Source: Halorubrum kocurii JCM 14978 (GTDB lineage Archaea > Halobacteriota > Halobacteria > Halobacteriales > Haloferacaceae). Taken from it: a stretch of DNA of 44,026 bases. The position numbers and the translations under genes are program-made. The notes below the pieces were generated by a model. The model was not told where the DNA came from, did not search any database, and worked only from the letters and a program-made list of their open reading frames with translations. Where the stretch lies: NCBI RefSeq assembly GCF_000337355.1, contig NZ_AOJH01000048.1:1-44026 (forward strand). The letters run 5' to 3'. Positions 3,949 through 40,490 of this stretch are shown piece by piece (position 1 is the stretch's first letter; the number at the start of each line of letters is the position of its first letter).

Positions 3949-4869
3949 TCAGAACTCTGCGAGGTCGCGCTGGCCGGCCGCGCGCCGCTCGCTCGGGGGC
4001 ACGTTGGTGGCGACGATCTCGTCGACCTCGTCGCGGTTCCCGGCGTCGCTGTTGATCGCGCGGGTCGCGCCCTCGCGATCGACGCGGAAGCCGGCCTCCG
4101 CGTACGGCTCGTTCATCACGCCGCTGTTGCTGAGGACGACCCACACGCCGGCCTCGTCGAGCGCCCCCGCGACGTCGAGCAGCCGGCGCTGGTCCTCGCG
4201 GTCGAACCCCTCGGCGCTGTACTCGTTGAAGCTCGCCGTCGCGCTCATCGGCTCGTAGGGCGGGTCGAAGTAGACCAGATCGCCCGGCTCCGCGGCGTCG
4301 AGGACGTAGTCGAAGTCGCCGTTCCGGACCGTCGCGTCCGCGAGCGCGTCGCTCGCCCGGCGGATGCGGTCGCGCTGGACCCAGTCGGGGTTCGCGTAGC
4401 GACCGACGGGGACGTTGAACCCGCCGTCGGCGTTCTCGCGGTAGAGCCCGTTGTAGCAGGTGCGGTTGAGGTACAACAACAGCGCCGCCTCCTCCAGCGG
4501 GTCGAACTCGCCCTCGTACGGCCGCCTGTTGAACCGCGCGCGCTGCTGGTAGTAGTAGCTCTCCACGTCGCGGCCGCGGGCGGTCTCCTCGGCGTGGGGG
4601 AGGTCGGGATCGGGGTCCGCGTCGGGGTCGTCGAACGACTCCAGCCGCTCGATCAGCGCCTCTGGGTCGTCGCGGACCCGCTCGTAGAAGTTCACAAGCC
4701 GCGGATTCGCGTCGTTGACCGTCGCGGCCGACGGCTCGAGGTCGAAGAACACCGCGCCGCCGCCGACGAACGGCTCGTGGTAGCGGCCGTACGTCGCCGG
4801 AAACCGGGCGTACAGCTCGTCGAGGAGCTGCCGCTTCCCGCCGGCCCACTTCAGTATCGGCTCGGCCAT
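3949..4869 (-). CDS. Dam-like DNA adenine N6-methyltransferase (D12 class)
   Basis: A 306-aa protein matching the full length of Dam-type methylases. It starts with PILKWAGGKRQLL (KWAGGK, residues 7-12), carries the SAM-binding EPFVGGGAVFF (motif I, about 32-42), the Dam-family NRTCYNGLYR (135-144) and the catalytic DPPY (202-205, YFDPPYEPM). D12 enzymes methylate the N6 of adenine, often in GATC. No endonuclease gene is adjacent, so it looks like an orphan methylase. The neighbours are a universal stress protein and a small HTH protein. The target site cannot be read from sequence and GATC is only the most likely guess. Confidence 0.9.
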   Translation of the reverse strand: MAEPILKWAGGKRQLLDELYARFPATYGRYHEPFVGGGAVFFDLEPSAATVNDANPRLVNFYERVRDDPEALIERLESFDDPDADPDPDLPHAEETARGRDVESYYYQQRARFNRRPYEGEFDPLEEAALLLYLNRTCYNGLYRENADGGFNVPVGRYANPDWVQRDRIRRASDALADATVRNGDFDYVLDAAEPGDLVYFDPPYEPMSATASFNEYSAEGFDREDQRRLLDVAGALDEAGVWVVLSNSGVMNEPYAEAGFRVDREGATRAINSDAGNRDEVDEIVATNVPPSERRAAGQRDLAEF

Positions 4870-4934
4870 GCGATGTCTGGGGTCGCCCGCCGCGGCGTAT
4901 AAACGTCTCGGGCGCGGTCCGCGCGCCGACGGGG

Positions 4935-5237
4935 TCAGTCGTCCGCGAGCTCCCCGTCCGGGTCCGGGAGGTCGGCGACGTGGGCGGCCGCCTCGTCGAA
5001 CTTCGGCCCGGGCTCGATGGTCCCCTCCTCTCGGTTCCACTCGATGTAGCCGGCTTCCTCCAACGCGGGGAGGTGGCTCTCGCGGAGCTCGGCGGCGATC
5101 TCGTCGACCCGCCCGCGGACCTGCAGATCCGCGACCGTCTCGACCGCTCCGTCCGCGATCCCGGCGATGACGCGACGGCGGCCCGGCGTCGCGACCGCGG
5201 CCTTTCGTTCTGAGGGGGTGTGATGTGTCAGTGACAT
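4935..5237 (-). CDS. Small winged-helix DNA-binding protein (DUF7344-like)
   Basis: A 100-aa protein with the layout of the short haloarchaeal HTH proteins now called DUF7344. It has a basic segment GRRRVIAGIADGAVETVADL, a central helix pair (VDEIAAELRESHLPALEEAGYIEWN) that reads as recognition helix plus wing, and an acidic tail. LPALEEAGYIEWNREEGTI is the typical wing. The ATG at 5237 follows an AT-rich region (5238-5285) with TATA-like CTTAATCC about 25-30 bp upstream. It is likely a transcriptional regulator; the targets are unknown. Confidence 0.72.
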   Translation of the reverse strand: MSLTHHTPSERKAAVATPGRRRVIAGIADGAVETVADLQVRGRVDEIAAELRESHLPALEEAGYIEWNREEGTIEPGPKFDEAAAHVADLPDPDGELADD

Positions 5238-6297: not shown

Positions 6298-6418
6298 CGA
6301 CGCGTCGATACCGAACCGCCGGACGGACGCCCGGTACTTCGGCCCTGTTGAGACCCTCTTCTTCGGAGCGCTTCTCGTTCGAACTCGACAGCCGCTGACA
6401 GCTGCGTGTCGATCGATA

Positions 6419-6859
6419 GCGGGAGGACGCGTCTCACTTCGGTCGACCGGGTATTTATAAGCGATCGAGAGGCGTCGCTGTCGGCCGCTTATACCTGGTT
6501 GACACTGCTGCGGTGACGACCTCCAAGGCCCCAGCCGTGAGGGCGGCGCACGCTCGCTGCGCGCCTCGCGCAGTCGCTATCGCTCCTTCGCTGCGGTGCT
6601 TCCGTCGCCTGCGTCGCCCTCACGGCTTCCCTTTTGAATCCCATCCAGCCGCACCGCACAGCCTCACGCCTCCCCAGCCTCGTCGGTCACCCTCCGCGTT
6701 GCTCCGGGCGACCGACTCCCTCGCACGCGCTCCTCGCGGGCCTGCGGCCCGCTCGGAGGCGCGCGCCGACCGCTTCGCTCATTTATAATCGATCGACGCC
6801 GTGGCCCACGGCTGTTTAAACACTCCATCGCTACCACCGAACTGCAACACCCACTCCCG
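6419..6859 (+). repeat. Dispersed intergenic repeat, copy 1 (long form)
   Basis: About 440 bp shares long, nearly identical blocks with 24757-25080. These include the block around GGGTATTTATAAGCGATCGA, the block GACGACCTCCAA, and about 60 bp ending in GACTCCCTCGC. It carries TATA-like TTTATAA at 6454-6460 and 6782-6788 and TTTAAA at 6815-6820, all matched in copy 2. A strong hairpin (GCGGGCC tgc GGCCCGC, 6736-6752) sits centrally. Compared with copy 2 it has an extra 114-bp module at 6531-6644. There is no transposase or long terminal inverted repeat. The boundaries are approximate. Confidence 0.85.
6531..6651 (+). repeat. Hairpin module within repeat copy 1, bounded by 7-bp direct repeats
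   Basis: CCAGCCG occurs at 6531-6537 and 6645-6651; the segment between is absent from the other repeat copy. Inside, AGCCGTGAGGGCG (6533-6545) is the exact reverse complement of 6615-6627. Pairing continues inward to 6550/6610 with one G-T wobble, giving an 18-bp stem enclosing about 59 bases. Either it inserted with a 7-bp target duplication, or copy 2 lost it by recombination between the 7-bp repeats. Confidence 0.65.
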
Positions 6860-6961
6860 CTGTCGCTCACTGCTGTGTCCGCGGTGACCGCGACAGGGTC
6901 AGGCGTATCACCGCCTGAGGGGTCCGACGACCGCGTTTCCACTCCTCGGCCCGACCGCGAT

Positions 6962-24733: not shown

Positions 24734-25148
24734 TATTGTTGGCGTCCCGAGCGACGGCGGGAGTACGTGTCTCAGTTCGGTCGATCGGGTATTTATAAGC
24801 GATCGAGTGGCGTTGCTGTCGGCCGTTTATGAGTGGTTGGCACCGCTGCGGTGACGACCTCCAAAACCCAAGCCGCACCGCACAGCCTCACGCCTCCCCA
24901 GCCTCGTCGGTCACCCTCCGCGTTGCTCCGGGTGACCGACTCCCTCGCGCGTGCACCTCGCGCCCTTCGGGCGCTCGGCGGCACGCGCCACCGCACCAGT
25001 CGTTTATAAATGATGGTCGCCGCCGCTCACGGTCGTTTAAATACTCGCACGGCGCCACCGATCTGCACCACCCACTCCCGGCATCAACCAGTTTGCACTG
25101 TACCGACGCATCGGACTGCGAAAAAACGGCCGACCGAGGAAGAGCGCC
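24734..25148. other. Intergenic region between convergent genes holding repeat copy 2
   Basis: The MFS gene (plus) and the DUF106 gene (minus) both terminate into this 415-bp region. Nearly all of it is repeat copy 2; the last ~68 bp (25081-25148) show nothing recognisable. No coding-like frame is present. Confidence 0.7.
24757..25080 (+). repeat. Dispersed intergenic repeat, copy 2 (short form)
   Basis: About 324 bp homologous to 6419-6859 in the same orientation and missing the 114-bp module. TATA-like boxes recur at 24792-24798 and 25003-25009 (TTTATAA) and 25036-25041 (TTTAAA). The central hairpin is GCGCCC ttc GGGCGC (24960-24974), with an outer stem GCGTGC/GCACGC (24949-24954/24981-24986). 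Stem bases differ from copy 1 while pairing is kept. Both copies sit between convergent genes. No open frame is shared. Confidence 0.85.
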
Positions 25149-39017: not shown

Positions 39018-40490
39018 ATGCGATCACGACTTCGGGCCGCGGCGGTCCGACTCCGAGCCGCGCTCTCCCGGCTCGGATCGGTGAGCGCGAATGCGCTCGA
39101 CCGCGCCGGCGTCATCGACCGAACGCGGCTCGGAGAGACCCTCAATCTGGCGTGGCCGCGAATCGTCACCGGGTTCGCGATCATGTCGAAGAACACGGTG
39201 GACCTGGCGGTCGTCGGGATCGCGCTCGGGGCGCCCTCCGTCGCCGGGCTGGCGTTCGCGTTCGCGTACTGGCAGCTCGCGAAGTTCGTCTCCATCGGGC
39301 TCGCCGGCGGGACGGTGTCGCTCGTGTCGCAGAGCTACGGCGGCGGCGAGACCGACCGCGCCGCGCTCGTCGTCAAGGCGTCGCTGCTCGTCGCGCTGGC
39401 GCTCGTCGCGCCCATCGTCGTCGGCTTCGTCGCGTTCGCGGAACCGCTGATCGCGCTCGTCGGCGGCGAGGGGACCGCGCTCCGGGCCGGAACGATCTAC
39501 CTCGCCGTCACCGCGCCGGCGCTCGCCTTCGAGTTCTTCAACATGATCGCGAGCCGCACGTACGCCGGCGTCGGCGACACGTTCACCCCGATGGTGGTCC
39601 GGGCCGGCGGCGCCCTCCTCAACGTCGTCCTCACCGTCTGGCTCGTCCTCGGCGTCGGGCTCGGCGTCTTCGGCGCTGGGCTCGGGACCGCCGTCTCCAT
39701 CGCCGCCGTCGGGGTCGCGCTCTCGTGGGGGATGACCGGCCGATCGTACTTCGGGCGCGGCGCCTCGCCGGTCCCGATCGGGCGCGACGGGCCGTGGATC
39801 GACGCCGACCTCGTCCGGCAGCTCCTCCGCGTCTCCGCGCCCCTGATCGGCCGCCGGGTGGCCGAGGGGGTCGCCGTCTTCCCCCTGTTGTGGATCGCCT
39901 CCTCGTTCGGCTCCGCGACCGTCGCGGCCCTCGAGGTGGGCCGTCGCGTCCGGGCGATCCTCGGGAGCTTCAGCTGGGGGTTCTCGATCGCCGCGAGCAC
40001 GCTCGTCGGCCAGCGGCTCGGCGCGGGCGAGGAGTCGCTCGCGACCGAGTACGGCCGCGACGTGATCCGGCTGTCGGCCCTCGTCTACGTGCTCGCCTCG
40101 GCGGTCGTGCTCCTCGCCGCCGACCCGATCGCGGGTGTCTTCGTCGACGACCCGGCGGCCGTGGCGGCGACCGCGGCGTTCGTCGTCGTCGCCGCCGTCT
40201 CCGCGATACCGCTCGGCGTCGACGGCTCCGTGACCGGCTCGCTACGCGGGGCGGGCGACACCCGGTGGCCGTTCCTCTCGTCGATGGTCGGACTGTACGT
40301 CGTCGCGCTCCCCCTCGCGCTGCTCGGGCTCGTCACGCCGCTGGGCGTCGGCGGGCTGTACGCGGCGGTCGTCGCCGAGAAGGTGGTGCCGGCGGGGCTG
40401 AACCTCGCGCGGTTCCGGTCGAACCGGTGGCAGGCGGTCAGCCGGCAGTACCGCCCGGACGCGGCGGACGGCGACGCCGCCGCGGAGTAG
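39018..40490 (+). CDS. MATE-family efflux transporter
   Basis: A 490-aa, 12-helix multidrug and toxic compound exporter. The first lobe starts at LNLAWPRIVTGFAIMSKNTVDLAVVGIALG, with AGGTVSLVSQSYGGGETDRA after helix 2, a MATE signature. The second lobe repeats this: PLIGRRVAEGVAVFPLLWI and AASTLVGQRLGAGEESLATEYG. SLRGAGDTRWPFLSSMVGLY is conserved in the family. These pumps use Na+ or H+ gradients. The arginine-rich N-terminus (RSRLRAAAVRLRAALSRLG) follows the ATG at 39018; a longer GTG/ATG frame overlaps the thiE promoter and is unlikely. Confidence 0.88.
   Translation: MRSRLRAAAVRLRAALSRLGSVSANALDRAGVIDRTRLGETLNLAWPRIVTGFAIMSKNTVDLAVVGIALGAPSVAGLAFAFAYWQLAKFVSIGLAGGTVSLVSQSYGGGETDRAALVVKASLLVALALVAPIVVGFVAFAEPLIALVGGEGTALRAGTIYLAVTAPALAFEFFNMIASRTYAGVGDTFTPMVVRAGGALLNVVLTVWLVLGVGLGVFGAGLGTAVSIAAVGVALSWGMTGRSYFGRGASPVPIGRDGPWIDADLVRQLLRVSAPLIGRRVAEGVAVFPLLWIASSFGSATVAALEVGRRVRAILGSFSWGFSIAASTLVGQRLGAGEESLATEYGRDVIRLSALVYVLASAVVLLAADPIAGVFVDDPAAVAATAAFVVVAAVSAIPLGVDGSVTGSLRGAGDTRWPFLSSMVGLYVVALPLALLGLVTPLGVGGLYAAVVAEKVVPAGLNLARFRSNRWQAVSRQYRPDAADGDAAAE

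Follow-up and report, generated by a model that had tools for sequence, protein, structure and literature searches.

An abundant dispersed repeat of Halorubrum and other haloarchaea with a conserved, strand-specific fold

The window, the 44,026-nucleotide stretch of Halorubrum kocurii JCM 14978 analysed here, carries two copies (A and B) of a dispersed haloarchaeal repeat. In Halorubrum its copies number from about 80 up to 150 or more per genome where they have been counted, and other haloarchaea hold fewer. We propose, with a confidence that is about even, that this is a non-autonomous element that needs a folded transcript or single strand, most likely a minus-strand RNA, in order to function or to move. 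The initial annotation had offered three readings of the pair, namely a mobile unit, a non-coding RNA or a bidirectional terminator/nucleoid site. The first is supported in part by presence and absence at orthologous sites and the second in part by strand-specific conserved folding; these two probably go together rather than being alternatives, and the third came out weak.

Results

The two copies recur in the same orientation. Positions 6404-6537 align with 24742-24875 at 85% identity (E 1e-39), and 6647-6859 with 24871-25080 at 84% (E 1e-58). The extra module reported for copy A is real and corresponds to the long arm between the two matching blocks. Both copies are situated in spacers between convergent genes, 6297/6962 for copy A and 24733/25149 for copy B; the three AT-rich boxes of copy A have counterparts in copy B, and neither a shared open reading frame nor a transposase is present in the two copies. 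In these points the initial annotation was accurate. It had also described a two-copy feature without terminal inverted repeats, and there it needs correction: imperfect inner inverted repeats are present in both copies, outer arms emerged on comparison of copies (Table 1), and the repeat belongs to a large family.

Table 1. Positions of the element and its parts in the window
Feature	Position	Strand	Remarks
Shell left outer end, copy A	6341-6358	+	GGCCCTGTTGAGACCCTC, like IS6-type MITE ends GGCTCTGTTGAAATCC; pattern search, outer-arm alignment
Probable shell right outer end, copy A	6917-6934	-	Degenerate, tentative; read by comparison with the outer-arm alignment
Inner inverted repeat, left arm (X end), copy A	6411-6443	+	33 nt, 73%, pairs with 6836-6868
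Inner inverted repeat, right arm (Y end), copy A	6836-6868	-	
TTTATAA box 1, copy A	6454-6460		
TTTATAA box 2, copy A	6782-6788		
TTTAAA box 3, copy A	6815-6820		
Structured core, copy A	6510-6773	-	Folding strand minus, 5' end near 6773; core shared between copies about 6510-6788
Stem III hairpin, copy A	6722-6768	-	
Invariant linker GCGAGGGA, copy A	6717-6724	-	
Stem II hairpin, copy A	6682-6716	-	Arms 6682-6692 and 6706-6716
Invariant purine linker CGAGGCTGGGGAGGCGTGAGG, copy A	6662-6682	-	
Stem I arm, copy A	6533-6627	-	Extra module missing from copy B
Covariance model R2 match, copy A	6662-6772	-	97.5 bits, E 1.3e-18; source alignment of the model includes copy A itself
Copy B with both shell ends	24743-25099	+	X 24743-24870, Y 24975-25099
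Inner inverted repeat, left arm, copy B	24753-24781	+	29 nt, 72%, pairs with 25057-25085
Inner inverted repeat, right arm, copy B	25057-25085	-	
Structured core, copy B	24886-24994	-	R2 112.4 bits, E 7.1e-22

Searches with the repeat, as the initial annotation had advised, returned many copies. At least 51 matches were found in the genome of origin, with 40 of 194 candidates scored, and about nine core copies in 424 kb scale to approximately 80 per genome. All 22 other sampled Halorubrum genomes contain the repeat, its density in the genus being about one element every 20-45 kb, and the complete relative G042 has at least 148 covariance-model matches at E <=1e-4 (150 scored). In a pattern scan of named genomes, nearly all of the matches listed came from Halorubrum, with others from Haloparvum, Halobellus and Halorussus. 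A covariance model of 110 positions, covering stems III and II, found matches at E <=0.01 in 124 of 342 genomes and in 36 of the 89 sampled genera of the order. Copy numbers at E <=0.001 reached 84 in G194 and 64 in G292, and between genera the number ranges from 1 to 148 or more. No match was obtained outside the order in a sample of 247 genomes of the phylum at E <=0.001, all 14 positive genomes being members of that same order. Several contigs of the genome of origin end inside a repeat copy, and single N letters with duplicated flanks inside three elements (L225, L334, L007) look like scaffold joins at repeats.

Rfam models gave no match to copy A at E <=1 and none to the core in other scanned loci (E up to 1 or 0.5). 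Matches in those loci were to RNase P, to a sub-threshold ribosomal leader and to weak miRNA models outside the core. The sequence GCGGTGGCGCGTGCC shows a short resemblance to the Alu domain of SRP/7SL RNA; an SRP/7SL identity on this ground was discarded, as Rfam gave it no support.

Read on the minus strand, the core consists of stem III, the linker GCGAGGGA, stem II, GAGGCUGGGGAGGCGUGAGG and the long stem I arm, most of which is missing from copy B. Its invariant purine-rich linkers are GCGAGGGA and GAGGYUGGGGAGGNNUGAGG. In an alignment of 60 copies these motifs between the hairpins are invariant, and the hairpins vary in sequence from copy to copy yet still pair: 27 of 41 predicted pairs are doubly changed. 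With a structure set by hand for 52 copies, 89.5% of cells paired, against 75.0% after shuffling and 32-49% when the partners were slid; covariation scored 0.383 against 0.150. Distant copies keep the linkers and have unrelated stem sequences; 90.0% of their cells are paired against 63.2% in shuffled alignments, a figure favoured by the fitting of this alignment to the covariance model, and 24 of 25 pairs are doubly changed. Slid-partner pairing stayed within 19-53% across both tests. Compensatory changes beyond shuffled and slid controls alike, as a structured RNA should possess, were thus found, with base-pair counts that are not independent because the copies are related. The comparison supports the view that selection maintains the folding of the core in one particular strand.

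Which strand folds can be told from wobble pairs, since a G-U pair becomes A-C when the opposite strand is read. The 33 pairs predicted on both strands contain 54 minus-strand wobbles and 8 plus-strand ones; copy by copy, the balance is towards minus in 35 and towards plus in 3, a bias whose binomial p of 7e-8 overstates the certainty because the copies are related. The minus strand also gives the more stable fold in 60 of 60 copies, and the fold z of the window copy is -4.99 for minus and -3.99 for plus. The wobble preference agrees with a functional structured RNA; hairpins of single-stranded DNA could give the same bias. RNA is favoured since the unpaired linkers do not vary throughout the order and the stems change freely, and the folding strand is most likely an RNA read from the minus strand of the window.

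A smaller part of the family carries its core inside an inverted-repeat shell. At least one arm of the inner inverted repeat CGGGAGTRGGTRT occurs in about 12% of copies with enough flank (18/120, a few weak matches included), both window copies among them, leaving about 88% without a shell. Outer arms, where present, end in GGCTCTGTTGAAATCC-like sequence. Elements of the IS6 family have motif-bearing ends and produce 8-bp target duplications (PMC7986276), and the GG tip and cTGTt/caaa motifs of IS6-type MITE ends are found at the left end of copy A at 6341 (GGCCCTGTTGAGACCCTC; relatives have GGCTCTGTTGAAATCCTC). Target duplications of 8 bp are clear around two core-free elements, in L136 (GGTTTTTG) and at G042 192168 (GCTCTATT), and none is visible around the shell ends of copy A. 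Copy B, for which no outer end could be placed, probably belongs to the shelled group on the strength of its inner repeats. All elements seen with IS6-like ends are transposase-free or degenerate. Core-free elements with such ends (GGCTCTGTTGAAATCC) were observed in L336 at 1501-1991 (contig C1 of the genome of origin, 39302-39792), in L136 at 1939-2536 and in the G042 segment at 192168.

At the mfs/p2 site the element is present in seven species, in one orientation in 3 and in the other in 4, with homologous outside flanks. This pattern points to inversion at the inner repeats, and recombination there has probably flipped the contents of the shell in place. An attempt to count these inversions on a tree was abandoned, as no branch was supported.

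A second, nested repeat, often inserted in the linker or the hairpins of the main element, is built of two variable-stem hairpins in the frame CAGCGAG-hairpin-CTCTGGCAGCCGGC-hairpin-GCCGGCGAC. Copies with both stems number 29 in 1.84 Mb; examples lie at C43 186571 (minus), C27 41150, L145 6835, L151 827 and G042 segment 363604. Tandem units of about 57-75 bp (TTTATAA..GATCGACGGTGAACACCTCCAAAGCCCCAGCCGC) were seen next to the folding strand's 3' end, at C27 65300-66160, upstream of the core in L014 and L015, and at G042 segment 292529.

Presence of the element varies between related genomes. The P4/P0001 site is empty in most other Halorubrum genomes, where a short spacer separates the two conserved flanking genes. 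Over a 400-kb syntenic stretch, G042 has 21 elements and G039 has 11, the two being 86.6% identical over the aligned part; about ten sites are common, every one in the same orientation and without inversion. At the differing sites neither element ends nor a target duplication could be defined, and core-only copies show no clean insertion junction and no target duplication. The differences in occupancy support a dispersed element that is, or formerly was, mobile.

Flanking genes were called with a simple purpose-made gene caller. None of the 78 Halorubrum copies with called genes on both sides overlaps a gene by more than 60 bp, and their neighbours are convergent in 30, co-directional in 35 and divergent in 13 cases. 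Convergent spacers are in 2.5-fold excess over gene pairs without the element (p 0.0007), a comparison in which frequencies per spacer are not absolute because most loci were selected for containing the motif. The suggested link to convergent genes thus stands in Halorubrum as an excess of about 2- to 2.5-fold and fails as a rule, since 48 of the 78 copies lie elsewhere; other genera show no convergent excess (9/36).

Position relative to stop codons differs between genera. In G240 and G287, a stop codon on the same strand lies 9-47 nt ahead of the start in 10 of 14 copies, and such close adjacency was found in 0 of 23 copies of G292, G214 and G104. The loci concerned in G240 and G287 are L389-L394, L306, L307, L314, L323, L324, L329 and L330, and some of the copies lie directly behind a T-run. 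A role as 3'-UTR element would suit G240 and G287 but not the other three genera, and the Halorubrum copies are strand-neutral (19 same, 16 opposite), so it was rejected. A chromosome-wide positional role was likewise dismissed, because in G042 the elements are randomly spaced (CV 1.06, against 0.99 for random) and show no strand pattern. The genes within 2.5 kb of 88 Halorubrum copies and 37 others share no recurrent protein family, which disposed of a protein association, and no transposase, TnpB or IscB was found within 2.5 kb of the examined copies. Carriage by viruses or plasmids was also set aside, with 1 viral contig, 3 plasmids and 0 phage records. In L108 the RNase P RNA gene is immediately followed by a copy whose folding strand is the strand of that gene (4495-4808 and 4839-5151).

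The TTTATAA boxes, proposed earlier as promoters, do not suit this role. On the folding strand only about 10 nt separate the box from the first stem, which would place a start site some 25 nt further on within that stem, and none of the distant-genus copies inspected has a box at this place.

Discussion

Under the explanation we favour, the core, made up of hairpins III and II with their invariant purine linkers and, in most copies, a long stem I arm, would be transcribed as its folding strand. A protein supplied in trans would bind the conserved linkers, and the resulting RNA-protein complex would enable the DNA to move or to persist. A minority, both window copies included, carry the core inside the inverted-repeat shell. 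Because the outer end of copy A resembles IS6-family MITE ends, a trans-acting IS6 transposase could move this shelled version, and perhaps copy B likewise. Against this explanation, some copies in other genera lie 9-20 nt behind a stop codon, which leaves little room for a promoter of their own. The missing insertion junctions of core-only copies and the absence of a transposase gene within 2.5 kb of the examined copies also count against it.

Known systems resemble the element in part. IS6-family MITEs share with it the non-autonomous state and inverted repeats, fitting the shell of copy A, as well as outer ends of the form GG..CTGTTGAAA and, in the core-free relatives, 8-bp target duplications (PMC7986276); they differ in that most copies here lack a shell, that the core is also present in genera where no shell was seen, and that MITEs have no conserved internal RNA-like fold. 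Haloquadratum PATEs and small mobile repeats are likewise haloarchaeal, abundant, transposase-free, intergenic and hairpin-rich, with smaller repeats nested in them (PMC3119063). REP and REPIN sequences are also intergenic, non-autonomous hairpin repeats with hundreds of copies (PMC3733652, PMC3116915), but REPs measure 20-40 bp, are conserved in sequence and have the RAYT transposase, whereas the present core of about 260 nt has invariant unpaired linkers and no known partner. Mitochondrial double-hairpin elements, a class mentioned in PMC5910586 and PMC4478555, are dispersed hairpins with variable stems and come nearer to the nested inserts than to the core, which is larger and has three helices and long invariant linkers.

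The strongest rival, to which we give roughly one chance in four, is a PATE/REP-type element of single-stranded DNA without RNA function. A Y1 (HUH) transposase acting in trans, for example an IS200/IS605 TnpA, would recognise its hairpins in one of the two DNA strands. The lack of terminal inverted repeats in most copies, the lack of duplications at differing sites and the strand specificity of the hairpins all agree with such an element, as do the nested double-hairpin inserts of this family and the abundance of PATEs and nested small repeats in Haloquadratum (PMC3119063). PATE palindromes, however, are conserved in sequence, lie near the termini and match IS605-type ends (PMC3119063), whereas here structure is conserved and stem sequence is not. 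Stems differ in nearly every copy and internal unpaired linkers are invariant across genera, which a folded RNA fits better, and no matching IS200/IS605 element was found beside any of the copies examined. That the repeat is instead an amplified family of trans-acting or regulatory RNA genes, beneficial to the host and without mobility of its own, we hold to be unlikely. Order-wide conservation of the junction linkers and the unchanged orientation at the common G042/G039 sites would follow from it, but half of the sites differ between these two species, copy number varies greatly between genera, spacing is random without gene association, and no consistent promoter is present.

It is improbable that the repeat serves as an intergenic terminator acting in both directions or as a site of nucleoid binding. 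The intergenic location, the convergent excess in Halorubrum and the stop-codon adjacency in G240 and G287 are what it would lead one to expect; the majority of Halorubrum copies are nevertheless not convergent, three other genera lack the adjacency, and a terminator needs neither invariant linkers nor a strand preference. Such intergenic spacers are also where a selfish element persists best. Scarcely credible, finally, is an artefact of GC-rich haloarchaeal sequence, in which stable hairpins would combine with chance similarity. Covariance-model matches have 67-82% GC, a composition at which stable folds are cheap, but the drop in pairing with slid partners, the absence of matches outside the order in the phylum sample and the linkers invariant across genera refute it.

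A bolder version of the favoured explanation can be put forward tentatively: a new haloarchaeal RNA family, spread by an RNA-dependent route as a guide RNA or by reverse transcription, an archaeal counterpart of SINEs or stand-alone HEARO elements. HEARO and omega RNAs of IscB and TnpB are structured and multicopy, and may occur without a neighbouring nuclease gene. The present core is likewise multicopy and predicted to form a structured RNA, and it differs in having no Rfam match and no IscB or TnpB nuclease gene beside the examined copies. Archaeal omega RNAs have been described (PMC12558985).

Conclusions

Our results describe an abundant haloarchaeal element family that has no Rfam entry and for which no earlier description was found in the openly searchable literature, so that an earlier report in subscription papers may exist. 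The direct prediction of the strand-specific folding is a minus-strand RNA of about 110-260 nt, arising from up to about 150 loci. For one species of the genus, H. lacusprofundi, a genetic system is available (PMC5052560). Were such an RNA confirmed, an abundant structured RNA would be added to those of the archaea, and with it a new route by which non-autonomous elements may persist.
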